Made by a program: the position numbers and the translations under genes. From Thelephora terrestris (Eukaryota > Basidiomycota > Agaricomycetes > Thelephorales > Thelephoraceae), in NCBI GenBank assembly GCA_015956445.1, contig WIUZ02000001.1, forward strand, positions 1,178,001 through 1,242,000: a DNA stretch of 64,000 nt, written 5' to 3'. The notes beneath the pieces were generated by a model. It was not told where the DNA came from, did not search any database, and saw nothing but the letters and a program-made list of their open reading frames with translations. Shown here one piece after another: positions 27,837 to 38,316 of the stretch. The first letter of the stretch is position 1. Each line of letters opens with the position of its first letter.

Positions 27837-27954
27837 GTCCGTTGTCTAGATTGGCGCAGCGTGAGATCGATTGGGACCTGCACGCTTGTAGTATCTCGAT
27901 CGTTTCAACTCACTCGTCTCCCACCACACGCGAGCTCCCTTCAAGAGCTCGCTA
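27837..27954. promoter_or_regulatory. Divergent gap, PLP2 / Dicer
   Basis: There are 118 bp between the outward-facing start codons. No TATA box is apparent; both promoters probably overlap here. Confidence 0.45.
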
Positions 27955-30900
27955 ATGGCCGTACAACCACCTTCCTGCAGTGATGACGGCCTCATACCAC
28001 GTCGATATCAGGAGGAAATATTTGAGAGGGCCGTCCACGGAAACGTGATCGCCGCCCTGGACACAGGCAGTGGCAAAACCTTCATCAGCACCCTTCTCAT
28101 TAAGTGGGTATCCACCAAGGAAGTCGCGCGCGAAAAACTGGTTGTGTTCCTTGTTCCAAAGGTTGCTCTCGCCCAACAGCAATGCGCGTTCATTGCGAAA
28201 CATTCGCCCTTACGAGTGAAACAGGCGACTGGAGCCACCGCTCCTGATATGTCTGATCGTCTCGGATGGCAGGAGCTGTTGAGTGATGTCGATGTCATTG
28301 TACTCACAGGTAGGCTATCTTTTTCGCTTCAAGTTTTCAGCCACCGACCACTTGTCAAAAGCACAGTTGTTTCTCAATGTCATTACCCACTCTCATTGGA
28401 GCATTCACAAGGTTCGCGGTTTCAGCCCAGCATTAGCTACCAACGTGAATTCTTGTTCCAGGTGTCTTTATTGATATTCGACGAATGCCATCACACCCGT
28501 AAAAACCATGCATACAATGGAATAATGCGCGAATACTACCAATGCTCTGATGACCAACGTCCCAAAATATTCGGGATGACTGCTTCGCCGATATGGAATG
28601 CAAAGGACGCTGTTACCTCTTTGGCCGTACTTGAAAAAAATCTCAATGCCTCAGTCGTTGCTGTACGGGATCATGTTAAAGAGTTATCTGATCATTCCCC
28701 GCGCCCAAAAGAGGTGGCGATCTCTCATCTATAAACAAACTCTTCCCCTCTGATGAAGTGGTATGGACAGATCATACAACAGTACCCTCCGCCACCAACG
28801 GAGTACCCCTCCTATCCCGTACCCACTCTTTGGAATCGGTGTAGCACCATTCCCCACTCTCCAGACATCGCAATACCTTGGATGAAGATCCAAACCCGTT
28901 ACCGTTCCGCTTACGAGTCCTTAGGACCATGCGGCGCGGAAATTTTCCTTCACGCCGAGCTTAAACAACAGGTGCGGTGCTTGTTCGATACCGCAGTCCC
29001 GAATGGGGGACCTGTCTCGGAGCTAGGACTGCGCCCGTTCGGTGTAGACGATAGCAACGATGGATCCGATCTCATCCACAAACTTGATCAGATTTTGCAA
29101 TTGTTGGCTCAATACGATGAACACCTCGTTGGTGCTAACGGGAATACCTTGAATCCATCTTGGTGTGCCCCCAAAGTTATAGCTCTAGTCGACATCCTGC
29201 TCGCCAATTTCCACGACAACTTCCAAAGTATCGTCTTCGTGGAGCAGCGTCATGTAGCAACTTCTCTGGCAGAACTTATAAGTCGCCTTCCGAGCGCCAC
29301 TGGTCGTCTTAAATGCGCAGTGTTGTTGGGACATGGAGCCACGGACAATTCTACTGCTTCTATCAAGGGAATGCCCACCAAAGTTCAAGGGGATGTCGTT
29401 CAGATGTTCCGAAAACGGGAAGTCAACATACGTGAGTACACAAGAGAGATTGAAATCAGCGACATTCATAACAATGTCTCTGTAGTGTTGGCAACCTCCG
29501 TTGCGGAGGAAGGGTTGGATTTTCCCGTGAGAATCTGCTCACCTTGATCTTATATCGTTCTGACGACCTTAGGCCTGTGATCTCGTCATCCGCTTTGATC
29601 CAGTGCAACACATGGTTGGATACGTCCAATCTAGAGGCCGAGCACGACATCGCACCTCAACTTTCGTCGTATTGGTCGAAGAAGGGGATGCCCATCAACT
29701 AGCACGCTACCAAGCTCTCAAAGAAAGCGAACCTGAACTCAGGTCCATATACCAAACCCGGGATACCACAGCCGTCGACGACCCTTCCGAGGACGACGAT
29801 CCCAGTGATACTACCGTTGGAGAGAGATATGTTGTTCCGACGACTGGTGCAATCCTATCCTATACCTCAGCTGCAAGTCTATTACATCGCTTGTGTGCCC
29901 TCATCCCTCGTGATCCTTTTACGCCTCCACAAATTCCGAGATACGCAGGTGATTTCGTTTCCACCCTCACGCTCCCTGCGTCCCTCCCGCTACCCCAAGA
30001 ATTGTTGACCTTTACCGGGCCTGAAAAACCGACCAAACGGGAAGCCAAACGTGCGGTCGCATTCATGGCTGTCAAGCGGCTACATGAAATCGACGTATTT
30101 GACGAGTATATGCTTCCGTCGAAAGGATCCAAGGCCAGGGTATACGAAGATGCGGACGGAAGGCCGGTGGCGTCGATGAAGAACCTGCCAGATATGCTAG
30201 ATGTCCTGGTACGGGATCCCTGGGTTTCAAGCGACAAGCTTTTCCTTCACGTTATATACGTCGATGGCCTACCAACCGCGGGGCTACTCACGGGGTCGTC
30301 GTTACCGCAGGTGGAACTAGTCATGCAGGGTACGCTCTTCACGATGGAAGCTGGGACACCTTTCGAGGTCCTACAACCTCATCAGTGGGAAAGGCTCCGA
30401 ATGTTTCAGGACTACACACGAGCAGGATTATGGTGGTGTGTCACCCACAAAAACATCTCCGCCCCCCTTGCCGCGTGCATGGTCCCTCTGACCGAGAGGC
30501 TGCTTCTTGATTTCTCCGCCATACAGGGAACAGTAAACAACCCTTTTGGTTCTCACAATTGGAGCTCGATCGATCAAGGGCATTGCGACAATCTACTCGT
30601 CATGAATGGGAAAGTCCACGGCCGGCCGCTCTTATTACGCTCAGTTAGACGGGACCTCACACCGATTTCAGCACCGGAACCCGGCTCTCGAGAAGCATCC
30701 TTCCCAACATATCGAGAATATTGGATACAGAAATACACTCGGAAAGGGGTCGAGCCTACCGTACCTACTGACTGCCCCCTCATAGAAATCCAGCACTTTC
30801 CCCGGGAACAATCTTCATACTACCCGACGGAGTCCTTACGTGGCGTAGATTGCTCCCAACCTTCTGCCCCAGTGGGATCCAAGTCACTCCTGCCCATTTA

Positions 30901-32654
30901 TCTATGCCGGAACTTCCAAATGCCGAAGGCGATGTGGAAGACGTTCAGGATCTTGCCGATACTCATGCGCAGAGCCACAGACCTGTGGCGGGCACGCCAG
31001 GCAGTCATCGAACTTTCCCTCCCCTCGATCCAACCACACATACTCGCGGAAGCGCTGACTCTCCCTTGTGCCAATGCAAGCTTTGATAACCAGCGTCTGG
31101 AAACACTTGGAGACTCGGTGCTGAAGCTTTGCACAGTTGTGTATATTTTTCACAAGTTCCCCTTCAGGCACGAGGGTCAGCTAGACGCGATTCGGAGATG
31201 CTGTGTCTCGAACAGGACTTTGCTCGCGCGGGCTCAGGAAATCGGTTTGGAAAGGTTCATATCCTCTGAAATCCAAACTATGCGAGTGTGGCCCTATACA
31301 GACCCTGGGAATTGGGACCCTGCTCGGGCGAGAGGAGGCCGACTGGTGGAACGATCTTTCCCCCGTCGGAGCCTCCAAGAGTGTATGGAGTCAACGCTAG
31401 GGGCAGCATTCTTGTCAGGTGGTATACCTACCGCCATACGTACCGGAGCTGCTCTGGGACTGTCGTTTGGTGGACCGATACCTTGGTCGCTGCGGTACGG
31501 ATGGGGACTCAAGCACGTGAATGTCTCATCCCTCTTCACCTCCCTAATGGAACGGCTTGGATACGAGTTCAAGTGCGGAGACTTGCTCATCGAAGCGGTG
31601 TCTCATCCCTCGTTTCAATACACTTCTCTCCCATCGTACCAACGGCTTGAATTTCTTGGTGATGGTAAGAGGATTCGCTTCACGACAGCCTCCGGACTCA
31701 TTTTCCATTAGCTCTCATCGATCTGGCTATTATGCGGCACTTATTCTACCGCTTCCCGAAAGCGACCTCTGGGGATCTGACGACCGCAAAGGGGAGGTTG
31801 GTCCGTAATGCCGCCTTGGCGTCTGTCGCTGTCAAGAAACTAGAGCTGCACAATGTGATATTACTTAATAACGCCGGCCTGAGCGCCGCAATTTGGTCCT
31901 ACGCCAAACTTCTTCAAGAGACGTCTTATGCGGAGATCGTCATCAATGGGTGGAAATACGAGCCCCCCAAAGCACTCGGCGATGTTTTCGAGAGTATCAT
32001 GGGTGCCGTATTTGTGGACTCAGGTCACGATTTCGAGAAGTTTAGTGTGATAGTGGAGATGATCATGGAGGAACTCCTGAACGAGATAGAGATGGACTTG
32101 CCTTTGGATCCGGTCTCAATTCTGATGATTTGGATGAGCAAGAATGGTTGTAGGCGGGTAAATTTTCAGTACGTCCTCCGTCAGAAGCCGGAGTTTGAGG
32201 CTAAACAACCCATAGAAGAGGATCGAGCCATCCTCACATCAAGACGGCCGATACCGTTCAAGTTATGGTTCACGGAACAGCTGTGACCGAGCCGATTCGG
32301 GTCAGAACGAAGGCAGTAGCAAAGGCCCTCGCTGCCGAGTTGGCTTTGAAAGTCTTGGAAGACGAGTCTTCCGATTATCATCTTCCTCGACTGTGCGACT
32401 GTAATCCCAAAGGAAGTGAAGTAAGACCTGGGGTTGGTGTTGGAGAGGACGATGAGGAGGAGGAACGGGACTCTGAGAGAGGGGGTGTGGACCTGGCTGA
32501 GGACCCAGTTCACAAAGATGAAACAGAAGAAGGATTCGCTGTGCTGGCTCAGAGCTTGGTCGAGGCGAGAGAAAGGAGGTCACCAAGAGCCGTAATTGAT
32601 CGGGGAGAATCCAGTGATATGGATATTTCAGAGGACGAAGTGGGAATACGATAG
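27955..32654 (+). CDS. Dicer-like endoribonuclease
   Basis: Dicer cuts double-stranded RNA into small RNAs for RNA silencing. Modelled exons are 27955-28309, 28362-28411, 28462-28713, 28759-29431, 29486-29526, 29573-31664, 31712-32172 and 32244-32654 (1444 aa). Helicase: ALDTGSGKTFISTLLIKW (about residue 35), DECHHTRKNH (about 143), LLATSVAEEGLDFP and QSRGRARH (about 475). The Dicer dimerisation domain lies at about 550-640. No clear PAZ is visible, as is common in fungi. RNase IIIa: RLETLGDSVLKL (about 961) and SLQECMESTLGAAF (about 1057); RNase IIIb: YQRLEFLGDALIDLAI (about 1146) and PKALGDVFESIMGAVF (about 1241). A C-terminal dsRNA-binding region, TADTVQVMVHGTAV, lies in a different frame, reached by an intron with a weak donor at 32173. 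The tail is acidic. Confidence 0.93.
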
Positions 32655-32690: not shown

Positions 32691-33393
32691 CTACTGGTTT
32701 GTGCATCTGCCAACCCTGTTCTGTGCTGGCTCTAGGCACTCTTCGAGTACAGTGAGGAGCGCAGAGTTCTCGAGAGCAGCAGCTACACGCTCTTTATCGT
32801 TCAACTGTTTGTTTACTATATCCAACCTAAAGTAAGTCCGTGTTGGTCATTGAGCCGTTTCTGTGGACATACGCTCGTTTTCGCTCTGGTGTGAGCCAGG
32901 CTTAACGCGGATGTCAACCTTAAATCGGTCGGGCAGGGCCCTCAGCAGGCGGACACGCAGTGTAAGGCCTGCGATGGTTACTCATTCTCGTCCATTCGAA
33001 TGGGATCCAACGTACCTATCACCGTACTCATCCCACAATGCGGAACGGTCGGAGTGAATTCGATCTGCACCCTATTTGTCTCATTCGATACGCTACACTG
33101 GGGAGCAGAGACGACCATTAATTCCTCCAGTGTCATGTGTTTGTGCTCCGGGTCTGTGATAAATCTGACCAAATCTAAAAAAACGGCCTTAGCTGGCTTA
33201 TAGCGATAGGTTGCGGGGGCTGCTGACCAAATACCTCATTTTGGTCTATACTATCCGCCACAGAAGGATCATCGTAGAGTCCGAACCTGCCTGTCCGTTC
33301 TTCCCCTAGGTCCCAGAGATCTGACGGGGCTCTAGCACCTCGTTTCCCGGCAGTTTTGAGAATTTTAGGATTGGGGTTATAAATTTCGTTCAT
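32691..33393 (-). CDS. CIA2: Cia2/MIP18-family cytosolic Fe-S assembly factor
   Basis: Cia2 is part of the CIA targeting complex that inserts iron-sulfur clusters into nuclear and cytosolic proteins. The start at 33393 gives MNEIYNPNPKILKTAGKRGA. After an intron, FITDPEHKHMTLEELMVVSA, then APQCSVSNETNRVQIEFTPT and VPHCGMSTVIG, the family core with the reactive cysteine. Another intron leads to LTLRVRLLRALPDRFKVDIR and VKPGSHQSENE, then LNKQLNDKERVAAALENS, ending near GRCTNQ at 32691. The last junction uses the acceptor before TAAACAAACAG. The stop lies 36 bp from the modelled Dicer stop (tail-to-tail) and the start is 105 bp from the WD40 start. Confidence 0.9.
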
Positions 33394-33498
33394 GGCTTGG
33401 CGATTATGATCGTCGGTGACGGAGGATCGTTCGCCGCTCGATCACTCTCACTCCTGTTCCACGATCAGACTTGACACCTGACGCAAACACACTCACGT
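33394..33498. promoter_or_regulatory. Divergent gap, CIA2 / WD40 gene
   Basis: There are 105 bp between the start codons of CIA2 (minus) and the WD40 gene (plus). No TATA box is visible. Confidence 0.45.
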
Positions 33499-36184
33499 AT
33501 GGGGAGGCAAACGTCGAAAAACCCAGTGGTCATTGAACTCCTTGATTCCGACTCTGATATCGAGATCATTAATCCTACAATCGTGATTTTGGACGACGAG
33601 GCACCTCCAAAGCCCGGACCCTCGGGGCTAACGGCGCAGCGAGTAAGCCACCCTCAGGGATACTAGAATAGGATTCTGACAACTGTAAAGAGAGGGGGTC
33701 CTTCAAGGTCATCCTCATCGAACAACAAGGCGAAGGGCACTTCTCTTCCCGCTGTGAAGATGGAACCCCCAACCGATCCGCCAGAACCTAAACCTTCGAT
33801 CGCGCGAAGCGTCGTGTGTTCTGATGAATCGGACAGTGATGCAACCTCTGTGGATGACCCATATAGTCATGCGAAAGTGAGTTATCAGCTTTGATATTAC
33901 CCGAGACGTTATTGAGCGCCTTACAGGTATTGGATGAGATGCCTTGGTTAAGTGACAGTGACATCAAGGATATTCCCCCTGTAACCATTCCTGTATACTG
34001 ACCTGCAACGCAATACTCACGGTTCTGAATGTCAGACGCGAGGTCACCTTTACCACATGGCTATCCATCATAAAATTACAAAAGTATGCTTCCAATTTAC
34101 CAGTGATTCCAACTTCTCACATAATTAATCTGGTTGTAGGACATTCATCAATTAAGCATCAGTGAAAAACGGAGTACTCCACAGAAATCACTTCCACAAC
34201 TATGGTCCCGTCTTCCGGATCCACTCACAATGGTAATTTCCCACATTGTGAACAAAATCCCTGATATAACACTGGGCAGAAATTACAAGGCATCACAATT
34301 ACTGGCGCCAAGCATATAGCCTGTATTGGCACTCCAAACTGGAGGAGACCTCATTACCTTGAGAATTCAAGGAGGCTCCATGATTGGAGGGGACTTCAGT
34401 TAATTGAATCACAGAGGGTGGCACCTGGAAGTAGGTTGACATATCTAGCCTACCTCCAAGTAGCAGCTTCTCATGGCACATAGGTGTAAATCAGGTGGCT
34501 CAAAGTGGAGGAATCATTGCCATTGCATCCTCAACAGTCCAAGGAGGGGATGATAGTCCCCCAGCTGTGGATAACATGGGTCCATCTTTGATATTCTGGA
34601 AGGAGAAATCTGGTATGCACCTGATCCTTTACAGTCCCAAGAGTGTGGTCATGATTATATGTTCTATCAGGGTTTTACCCAACGTACACTCACACAAGAC
34701 CTTATGGTGTAGATATGATCCTCCCAGAGGAAATCAGAGGTGAGATAAAGCCATAGGTTTTACATTATATCCACTGCTCACTGTAATTTACTTAGGTGAA
34801 TTTATTGAGGGCCTCAAACATTTTGCAGTCAGTGATGTCAAGTTTAACCCACAGAAGTATGCATAGGCCATATGAGTTTTCCACCCTCTAATACAATCCA
34901 GTCCTCAGCATGCAGCCTCATGTGGCTATGATAAACGTGTCTTTTTCTGGACATTTGAAGCAAGTTATGATCAGTTCTGTCCTCAAATCTCTGGAAGCAG
35001 TATGTAACCCCACTTCTCCTCTAGATTTTCCTAATTGTTATTGTAGTTGAAATGGATAAAGCACCTACTGAGCTTCATTATAGAGGGGATGACCAGGGCA
35101 CTCTTGCAATTGTGGCTGATAGGTAGGGAATTAATTGTCCCTGAGATAAGTTGGACTCAAGAATCTATAGTTGCATACACATATGCAAACATAGTCAATC
35201 CCCACCCGTTATCACAGGCTCAGATCAACAGTTTGAACCAGCCAGAGGCTGTTGTGTTTCTGGCCTGGAATGGGGCCAAAATAGGACTTCAGACCTCCTC
35301 TTTGTTACTTGGCAACCCCATGGACAGAAGAGGTATTTCAACAAACACAACTTCCACCAATCATTGGGCATCCAAGATGGAAACCTGTGTTACAACTTTA
35401 GTACCTCAACTTACCCTGGCAGTGCTCTTGGTCTCAGTCCTGATGGTGTGTCCTACTTTCAATTCTAACTAACGGGGTTCATCTTGTCAATAGGAACCAG
35501 GATTGCACTTGCTACCCACACTGGCACATGTCATAAACTCTCAATCTTTGATGTGAGGGTAGAGGCATCAAAACTTACCACGGAATACACCATTTCAGGG
35601 ATCCCCCTTAGAAATGATATTGAACACCTCAAGTTTGATCCCAGCGGGGAATTCCTCGCAGTCGGGCGATCTGATAATATTGTGGAGATCTTTGATACGC
35701 GCATGGGGACTATCCTGCATACTCTCCATCACGGCGAATCAATCTCCATGAATGCCAACAGTGAGCGATATGGAATAACAGCCATGGAATGGATTACCGG
35801 TTGGAATGGTTGCGGGATGAGGTTACTCACTGGAGGTGAAGATGGTGTGTGATCTATAGTTAATTTGACTTCACCGCCGAACTGACTATTTGAAAGGATG
35901 TGTCAGAATGTGGGACATCACACGGCCAGCAGTTGACTACCGGGTGAATACCCCACTCCTAGATGAACGCCTAGATCCAGCGAATGGATGTGCAATTGCG
36001 AGAGAAAATGATTCCATCGGTCACTTCAACGTCGGAAACAAGGGGATTTACGACGGTCACGAGGTGGCACTTGTCGTGTAGGTGCCATTTGGTAGTGGAA
36101 TTGTAGCGTTACTCACCCCATCCCAGAGGGGACGAGTCCGGCTCTGTTTCGATCTACGACAGACGAGGGATCCTCCGTTGGTGA
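33499..36184 (+). CDS. WD40-repeat protein with N-terminal SUMO-interaction-like motifs
   Basis: The start gives MGRQTSKNPVVIELLDSDSD then IEIINPTIVILDDEAP: two hydrophobic cores next to acidic residues, the pattern of SUMO-interacting motifs. A basic/acidic linker with VVCSDESDSDATSVDDP and EMPWLSDSDIKDIPP follows. Splicing leads to GHLYHMAIHHKITKDIHQLS, WSRLPDPLTMKLQGITITGA, then beta-propeller blades: GGIIAIASSTVQGGDD, GPSLIFWKEKS, HAASCGYDKRVFFWTFEA, YPGSALGLSPDGTRIALATH, EFLAVGRSDNIVEIFDTRMG, LLTGGEDGCVRMWDITRP and SGSVSIYDRRG. About 12 introns. The part at about 34040-35580 almost lacks CpG while both flanks are CpG-rich. I do not recognise an ortholog with a known role; a nuclear, chromatin- or SUMO-linked function is inference. 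Confidence 0.78.
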
Positions 36185-36531: not shown

Positions 36532-38316
36532 TCAGATGTCCAACGGTTCGTGAGTTCTCGCGTCAACACCACGGATCGCTTGACTCTCGCTGGCAGTCAC
36601 CCTCTCCCTACGGGACTCGAACCCGCCGACCCCAGGGCCGCGGGGTTGACGCATGATTGTGGGACTTTCGGCAAGACCATTCTGAACAGACGAGGGGAGG
36701 CTCGGAACGGGAGGGATAGGCCCACTTCCGAATCCGGGGTTGCCAAAGAGGGATCCGAATCCACCTGGGGAACGTCTAGAAGGGGAGGCGATGGTAGCAT
36801 AACCCTCGCGTATGTTTCCATTGGAGGATCGAGTATTCAGCCGCGGAACAGGGTTCTGTAGCGATTTCATGTCAGGCATGGACTTCTTTCCCCGCAATAG
36901 GCTTGTAGCAGACGTGAGACCAGTTGGAGTGAGGTATGCTGAAGGGGTGCGGGAAAGCGTCTGACGAGGTTGCTGCCGCTACGATCGAAGAACTGTTCAG
37001 ATTGTGCGACTTCTGGAAGACACGAAGGGCCTTACCGCGGCTGGATCTATTCTAGTTACGACGGCGTAACGTTCATCGCCCTCACCGATGGAGTAGTGAT
37101 AGACGCCAAGCCTCTGTGCAATCAAATGGACAACCCGCCGCTGTTTGGGAGTTAACGTCCGGGAAAATGCTAGTTCGTCACGCATATGGTCATCTTTGAA
37201 CAGCAGAATGCGAGAGTAGATGTCCAGAGTGGATGGATCATTAAGGTCCAACTCGGTGTTGGGGGATTTCACCGCAGGACTTGCAGGGAGGGGTGAAATC
37301 ATGCTCTGGATTTGTTGGACGTTAGTGTTGATGAATGGTGGGGAAAGCCCGGGAACTGCTGCGAGTTGTGGAGGGGAATACTGTTGCTGTTGGGAGGCAT
37401 ACTGGGCGGAGAAGGATCGTTGCGGTGAGAAGGTTGGTTGTATGACTGGACCAAAGTCATCGTACGGAGGCATAGAAGAAACTGCCTGTTGTTGTTGTTG
37501 TTCCTTCTCGAGTTGCATGGACCGCATGCGTCGAATCGCTTTCTCCCTTTCGATGCGTTCCTTTTCCCCCGCCTGGAGTACCTTTTTGTATTCAACTCGC
37601 AACTTGCGTCCTTGAACATCGAACCCATTCAAAGCCGCCACCACTGCATCGGCGTCGCTCGCGGCCCTGAAGTTTGCGAAAGCGAGGCCACGGAACTGGC
37701 CGGACTGGTCAAGGTGATAGTTAAAAGCGTAAGGAGTTGGGATTGACAGCGACGCCTGTATTCGGAGTCAGGTGAACGTTGGATTGGAGGATGAAGATGA
37801 ACTAACGATTATGTCCAGGAGAGTTTCCCTCTTGACGTTGAAGGGAATGTTCTTGATTACTATAGCGGTGGGGATGACCTCGTCATCGTTTCCTTGCGCC
37901 GGAGTGGTCGGCGCATTGACCTGCGATGTTGGTGGGGAACCTCCGGCGGAAGAGAAGTCCGAGTTGTTGTTTGGAGAAAGCGACCTGATATCAGGAGGGG
38001 AGACTGGATTTTCCAGCCATTGCTTCGATGTCTGATTAGCCTAGTGTTTAACAGCGGCGAGAGAGGGAGAAAAACGCACCGAAGGCAACCCACCCCTCAT
38101 TGTCTTGTTCTTAAGAGGAGAGTGGTTTAAAGTGAGCGGGCTGTACTGGGATTGGGCGGGGATTGGAGGCGAAGTGGAATAGTGGTACTGAGATCGTGCA
38201 CCACCGTTGCCACCATTGCCCTCGTAATCGTAAGAATCGTGAATACGTTGTTGGGATGGTTTTGAAGAGAGTGAGAGAGAAGCGATATCCGGCGTTGATG
38301 AAGCGCTGCTGCTCAT
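36532..38316 (-). CDS. PIN4: RRM plus R3H RNA-binding protein, Pin4/Cip2-like
   Basis: Pin4 (budding yeast) and Cip2 (fission yeast) are RNA-binding proteins of the stress and checkpoint response that control mRNA stability. The start is MSSSASSTPDIASLSLSSKP. A disordered N-terminus with a first intron leads to the RRM: EVIPTAIVIKNIPFNVKRET, RGLAFANFRAASDADAVVAA and KLRVEYKKVL. A basic helix (EKERIEREKAIRRMRSMQLE) and a Gln run follow, then Pro/Ser/Gln-rich linker. An R3H-like domain begins DIYSRILLFKDDHMRDELAF and holds RRVVHLIAQRLGVYHYS. The Ser/Pro/Gly-rich C-terminus after an intron starts SRTPSAYLTPTGLTS and ends EPLDI at 36532, with several SP/TP sites for kinases. Confidence 0.88.

Follow-up and report, generated by a model that had tools for sequence, protein, structure and literature searches.

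Depletion of CpG through deamination of 5-methylcytosine (5mC) is a familiar feature of vertebrate genomes and of methylated invertebrate genes. A 1.6-kb stretch within a WD40 gene of Thelephora terrestris resembles these cases in its loss of CpG, in the accompanying rise of TpG and CpA, and in the involvement of introns and exons alike. It departs from them in being a single such stretch: 10-kb loci sampled from the same genome mostly have a CpG observed/expected ratio (o/e) of 0.87-1.05.

Among basidiomycetes, RIP-like hypermutation that changes C to T at CpG is described in Ganoderma sinense, in which the change falls in repeats (PMC4457147), and in Rhizoctonia solani AG8, in which genes and repeats are affected to a similar degree (PMC4014442). 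The type of change at the present locus is the same, but here it affects an unduplicated, open gene, in a sharp-edged block whose neighbors are spared. Gene body methylation offers another parallel, as the scar, known here from sequence, lies inside a gene model, spares its 5′ end and leaves the frame intact. Two reports state that, with exceptions, fungi mostly lack such methylation (PMC7862722; PMC13297926). Open-access literature yielded no report of gene-restricted CpG deserts or of CpG-depleted DNMT1 genes in basidiomycetes.

The block and its host gene

The window is the whole 64-kb stretch of DNA that was analyzed, and its overall CpG o/e is 0.92. The gene that hosts the block and the features within it are as follows, in window coordinates.

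33499..36081, plus strand: host gene, WD40 protein of 639 amino acids, 14 exons, open from ATG to stop (from reading frame and splice sites)
33499..34039, plus strand: 5′ part of the gene, CpG near normal; acidic, serine-rich N-terminal region
34040..35644, no strand: CpG desert, 9 CpGs in 1605 bp, o/e 0.12
35645..36081, plus strand: 3′ part of the gene, CpG near normal; last WD40 repeats
Introns 1-7: 33643-33690, 33877-33926, 33981-34035, 34084-34139, 34233-34279, 34431-34483, 34613-34670
Introns 8-13: 34740-34795, 34857-34901, 35000-35046, 35123-35170, 35446-35493, 35845-35896
CpGs left in 34040-35644: 34170, 34209, 34216, 34306, 34683, 34936, 35207, 35473, 35581

Reading frames and splice sites are coherent throughout, as the preliminary description of this DNA had stated. 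Alternative frame-keeping choices exist for the introns at 35123-35170 and 35845-35896, and the remaining introns were placed by eye from reading frames and splice sites. All 13 are 45-58 bp long (45-58 bp within the block, 48-55 bp outside). The desert starts in exon 4, spans exons 5 to 12 and stops in exon 13, and thus both of its edges lie inside the gene, with 541 bp spared at the start of the gene model and 437 bp at its end.

Counting bears out most of what had been noticed by eye. About five or six CpGs had been claimed in 34270-35580, where there are 5 (o/e 0.08), with 8 in the longer interval 34040-35580 (o/e 0.11); the upstream part of the gene described as CpG-rich (33500-34000) contains 28 (o/e 0.90), and the downstream exons, described likewise, are near normal. 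In sliding windows of 1311 bp, the median CpG o/e is 0.94 and the lowest value free of overlap with the block is 0.74, so that the block, at 0.12, is indeed poorer in CpG than its neighbors. A segment scan assigns 34040-35644 a log-odds score of 68.4, whereas 60 simulated 64-kb sequences from a first-order Markov model scored 10.5 at most. The edges are sharp, as had been claimed, but their placement at 34270 and 35580 requires revision: a two-rate model positions the left edge at 34050 (95% interval 33930-34232) and the right edge at 35630 (35540-35654).

The encoded protein gives a Pfam WD40 match (E 1.2e-13), and specific propeller families remain below threshold, with THOC3 having the lowest E-value among them. 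Matches listed for it in Pfam, NCBIfam and PDB (best 60 of 297) are solely generic WD40 proteins, and neither Raf1 nor DIM-9 is among those listed in the three collections. In the genome searched (40.6 Mb, 60 contigs), a DNA search for a second copy, a check proposed in the preliminary description, returned one match, the block itself, and a protein search returned seven matches to the gene itself plus five weak WD40 hits at other places. Between 30 and 40 kb of the window, the settings used detected one 20-nt direct repeat pair and no inverted pair.

Character of the CpG loss

The loss is centered on CpG, and the remaining choices of C and G are mostly retained, with some extra AT enrichment. 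The clearest expression of this is in codons, for which the background consists of 24 stop-to-stop ORFs of at least 300 amino acids (L035 omitted), which are ORFs and not verified genes. Within the block, C is the final base of NNY codons 2 times in 55 when G follows and 82 times in 155 when another base follows; for the background ORFs, the counts are 946 in 1718 and 2345 in 3938, respectively. The complementary comparison concerns codons ending in G, which make up 3 of 42 NCR codons versus 34 of 83 other NNR codons in the block, and 612 of 1325 versus 1222 of 2214 in the background. Codon choice that is independent of CpG therefore stands at 0.53 in the block versus 0.60 in the background for NNY, and at 0.41 versus 0.55 for NNR.

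Introns and exons are both depleted, in agreement with the preliminary description: the nine block introns (458 bp) have 1 CpG where 17.5 are expected from their C and G content, and the block exons have 8 where 57.4 are expected. Because the introns are affected as well, codon preference alone is insufficient to account for the loss. The reported excess of TpG and CpA is also present, with o/e values of 1.26 and 1.46 in the block versus 1.08 and 1.05 in window positions 1-33500. When symmetrized, TpG and CpA gain 17 per kb each, which balances only some 60% of the 56 CpGs lost per kb; on the plus strand, CpA frequency is raised 1.53-fold and TpG 1.01-fold in the block. The AT and TA dinucleotides are up 1.49-fold and 1.59-fold, respectively, and the loss is thus not purely one of CpG. 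The GC content of the block is 0.43.

Arginine codons, noted earlier as nearly all AGR, number 15 AGR and 3 CGN in the block, as compared with 193 AGR and 495 CGN in the 24 background ORFs. A single CpG deamination cannot convert CGN to AGR, and the desert therefore looks old. At the amino acid level, Arg is scarcer in the block than in the background ORFs, and His, Gln and Cys are more frequent. This shift fits decay under selection, although a comparison made with ORFs in place of orthologues is a weak one.

Methyltransferase genes and other sampled loci

The preliminary description had allowed for a process limited to one block, a restriction that the scan of further loci contradicts, as deserts were found elsewhere, including at two DNA methyltransferase loci:

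C1 985271-988312: desert at a DNMT1-RFD locus, o/e 0.12, reaching the end of the stretch read
C15 290681-293671: desert at a DNMT1-RFD locus, o/e 0.15, reaching the end of the stretch read

The stretches L015, L016 and L018-L021 cover both loci. Each desert is about 3 kb or more in length, with its 3′ edge within the sequence read and its 5′ end beyond it. The 3′ edges lie about 120 bp (C1) and 190 bp (C15) past the apparent stop codons, and outside the desert edges the CpG o/e in 250-bp windows is 0.62-1.60. Sequences shared among these two deserts and the WD40 block are limited to matches of 12-25 bp.

Pfam PF00145 (C5-methyltransferase) matches occur at four places in the genome, on C1, C15, C56 and C58. 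At 985-989 kb of C1 and 291-295 kb of C15, RFD, BAH and PF00145 matches follow one another in order on one strand, and each locus is a putative single gene. RFD matches, both partial, exceed the cut-off on C1 (24.1 bits) and C15 (24.5 bits), and BAH is above it on C1 and below it on C15 (26 vs 30.8 bits). Individual ORFs from portions of the two loci matched PF00145 but not BAH, and one C1 ORF searched against PDB gave no methyltransferase match. Catalytic motifs are evident on C1 (PPCQ, ENV, QAGRYGVPQNR, QIGNAV) and on C15 (FENV, QAGHYGTPQSR, QIGNAV), where a putative PCQ, judged from ORF ends, would be split by an intron. A DNMT1-RFD layout combining RFD, BAH and methyltransferase domains is described for CpG maintenance in Basidiomycota (PMC13297926; PMC7862722).

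Solely from ORF reading and PF00145, the C58 and C56 loci are taken as DNMT5-like and DNMT2-like, respectively; a long ORF after the methyltransferase part of C58 has no Pfam match. Both loci are CpG-normal. If these labels hold, the set in this genome is that listed for several Agaricales, namely two DNMT1, one DNMT5 and one DNMT2 (PMC7862722). A RecA-like (RAD51/DMC1-type) gene with small exons is present at C58:382821-384189, about 12.6 kb from the methyltransferase match at C58:396761.

A sample chosen by place comprises 20 loci of 10 kb, 10 of them around the window and 10 on other contigs. CpG o/e is 0.87-1.05 in 19 of the 20 and 0.67 in L035. Scanning these loci (L001-L008, which repeat the WD40 locus, were omitted) revealed four deserts of 319-952 bp:

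L035:1535-2486: desert with a CpG-poor DDE transposase relic inside
L031:7431-8375: desert overlapping a repeat common to L035
L035:7726-8084 and L040:2473-2791: deserts from the scan

In the repeat pair shared by L031 and L035, CpG-type transitions account for 38 of 154 counted differences, which is a moderate bias only.

A desert is not a feature of most genes sampled. The five other WD40 loci are free of it (5/5), and all 14 gene fragments of 72-114 bp are CpG-normal, with 3-11 CpGs each and o/e of 0.77-1.75; the fragments represent two of three RecA-like places, both RAD21/REC8 places, one each of HORMA, SPO11-type and MND1-type, six of six MutS-type places and one BAH match outside the DNMT1 loci. 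Retroelements are likewise CpG-normal at 8 of 8 loci (o/e 0.93-1.17; the best-scoring 8 of 120 matches). Together with the two other methyltransferases, these make 29 comparison loci, and deserts occur at 2 of 2 DNMT1-RFD loci versus 0 of 29 others, a division that simple counting puts at 1 in 465 for hand-chosen families and short fragments.

Explanations for the deserts

The block is probably the product of CpG methylation that persisted for long in a few gene bodies, with deamination proceeding under purifying selection. Of the causes that the preliminary description had put forward, cytosine methylation of long standing is the best fit to a loss that is CpG-centered, affects introns and exons, and keeps the frame, in a genome with C5-methyltransferase genes. 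CpG methylation would have been held for a very long time, in the nuclear lineage, over the middle of a functional WD40 gene; methylated CpG would have deaminated to TpG or CpA as selection at the protein level preserved the frame and shifted arginines to AGR. The methylated domain would have had stable borders, leaving both gene ends untouched, and the same process may have scarred the two DNMT1-RFD loci. Since these are scarred alike, the WD40 gene may belong to a small body-methylated set that includes part of the methylation machinery. We infer methylation as the cause, its persistence, and a single origin for all three genes; a shared cause is not certain, because the WD40 scar is partial and the DNMT1 scars reach the 3′ end of the gene.

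Retroelements are the usual targets of methylation in fungi. That they are CpG-normal here counts against the methylation reading, and youth of the elements could explain it. The AT and TA rise, and TpG and CpA gains that fall short of the CpG loss, count against pure CpG deamination. In C. cinerea, genes are reported in which high 5mC accompanies weak expression (PMC8889193), and a negative correlation between gene-body methylation and expression is reported for two Pleurotus species (PMC5974365). DNMT genes are expressed in monokaryotic mycelium of the same two species, which speaks against lasting silencing of DNMT1 (PMC5974365).

Several other histories could produce a CpG-poor block. Introgression or gene conversion would have brought it in from a diverged, CpG-poor homologue, whether this came from a different species or was an ancient allele or a paralogue since lost, an idea raised in the preliminary description and consistent with edges that both fall within the gene and with a GC content lowered beyond the loss of CpG (in the AT and TA rise and in the NNR choice of G). 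We regard it as unlikely: NNY codon choice outside CpG contexts is close to the background, the introns inside the block resemble the outer ones, no second copy or strong paralogue emerged from the genome search, and the two DNMT1-RFD deserts would demand a separate cause. With NNY near background and NNR somewhat below it, a foreign donor is not required. Selection might alternatively have purged CpGs from genes that must escape silencing, the DNMT1-RFD and WD40 genes among them, and it is true that both DNMT1-RFD loci are CpG-poor and the other sampled gene loci are not. Such methylation-proofing is nonetheless improbable, as the WD40 introns and the sequence past the DNMT1 stop codons are stripped as well; the rise of His, Gln and Cys also suits decay over synonymous recoding, with the weakness already noted for that comparison.

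A RIP- or MIP-type history, in which a former duplicate of the segment triggered methylation and mutation of the copies and later disappeared, has precedent in the accounts of RIP-like CpG change in repeats of Ganoderma and R. solani AG8 (PMC4457147; PMC4014442), and a CpG-poor DDE transposase relic exists in this genome. The preliminary description had offered a RIP-like process as a candidate, which finds no support in one DNA copy, weak WD40 protein relatives, an open frame and arginines moved to AGR. Neither the DNA nor the protein search found a trigger copy, the three deserts share only matches of 12-25 bp, the nonsense and frame loss usual for RIP-hit sequence are missing, AGR recoding represents slow change at many sites, and the one repeat pair is only moderately CpG-biased; this history is thus quite improbable. 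By analogy with animal germline genes, methylation could also silence sexual or meiotic genes, including the WD40 gene, in vegetative mycelium. That is highly improbable, as fragments of SPO11-type, MND1-type, HORMA, two RAD51/DMC1-type and two RAD21/REC8-type genes are CpG-normal in 7 of 7 cases. A class of silenced meiotic genes is refuted for the genes sampled (14/14 CpG-normal), a sample in which DMC1, REC8 and HOP1 are not separated from mitotic relatives.

Persistent methylation of gene bodies, the reading preferred here, leads to a more speculative extension. It is conceivable, if doubtful, that the DNMT1-RFD genes and the WD40 gene form a methylation-feedback set, body-methylated over the long term, in which the level of methylation would feed back on its writers and the deserts would be the fossil record. 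Arabidopsis ROS1, a plant demethylase gene, is described as a methylation rheostat (PMC4380477; PMC5730562). Under the feedback reading, both systems would have a methylation-machinery gene that is itself controlled by methylation, but in the fungus the genes are DNMT1-type and the case is made from sequence alone.

As regards the WD40 protein, a similar layout is that of S. pombe Raf1, which has a total length of about 638 amino acids. Raf1 is a WD40 DCAF of the CLRC H3K9 methylation complex, with WDxR motifs at 515-518 and 573-576 (PMC3271066). Both proteins have an N-terminal region followed by a propeller, with two (F/W)DxR motifs near the C terminus. Two canonical WDxR motifs are absent from the protein studied here, which has FDVR at 480 and FDTR at 528 of 639 amino acids and therefore Phe in place of Trp in both; the likeness is one of layout rather than of compared sequence or fold. 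As a lead only, then, the WD40 protein could be a DCAF-type heterochromatin factor of the Raf1 kind. The feedback reading is rated low because homology to Raf1 is unsupported and because the DNMT5-like and Dicer genes carry no scar.

If methylation is the cause, methylation-type scars would provide a sequence-based way to find persistently methylated fungal genes, and they raise the question of whether fungal maintenance methyltransferases methylate their own genes. Were the WD40 protein Raf1-like, the desert set would consist of silent-chromatin writers with methylated genes, a feedback loop.

Three neighbors of the WD40 gene can be recognized in the window. A Dicer-type gene at 27892-32654 (plus strand), with a DEAD/ResIII helicase, a Dicer dimerization domain and two RNase III domains, ends about 850 bp upstream of it and is CpG-normal. 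ORFs at 32978-33441 (minus strand) have a match to the FeS-assembly P family that is below the cut-off (E 0.016), and a divergent promoter may serve both them and the WD40 gene. On the other side, an ORF with R3H and RRM domains at 36997-37767 (minus strand) is convergent on the WD40 gene.
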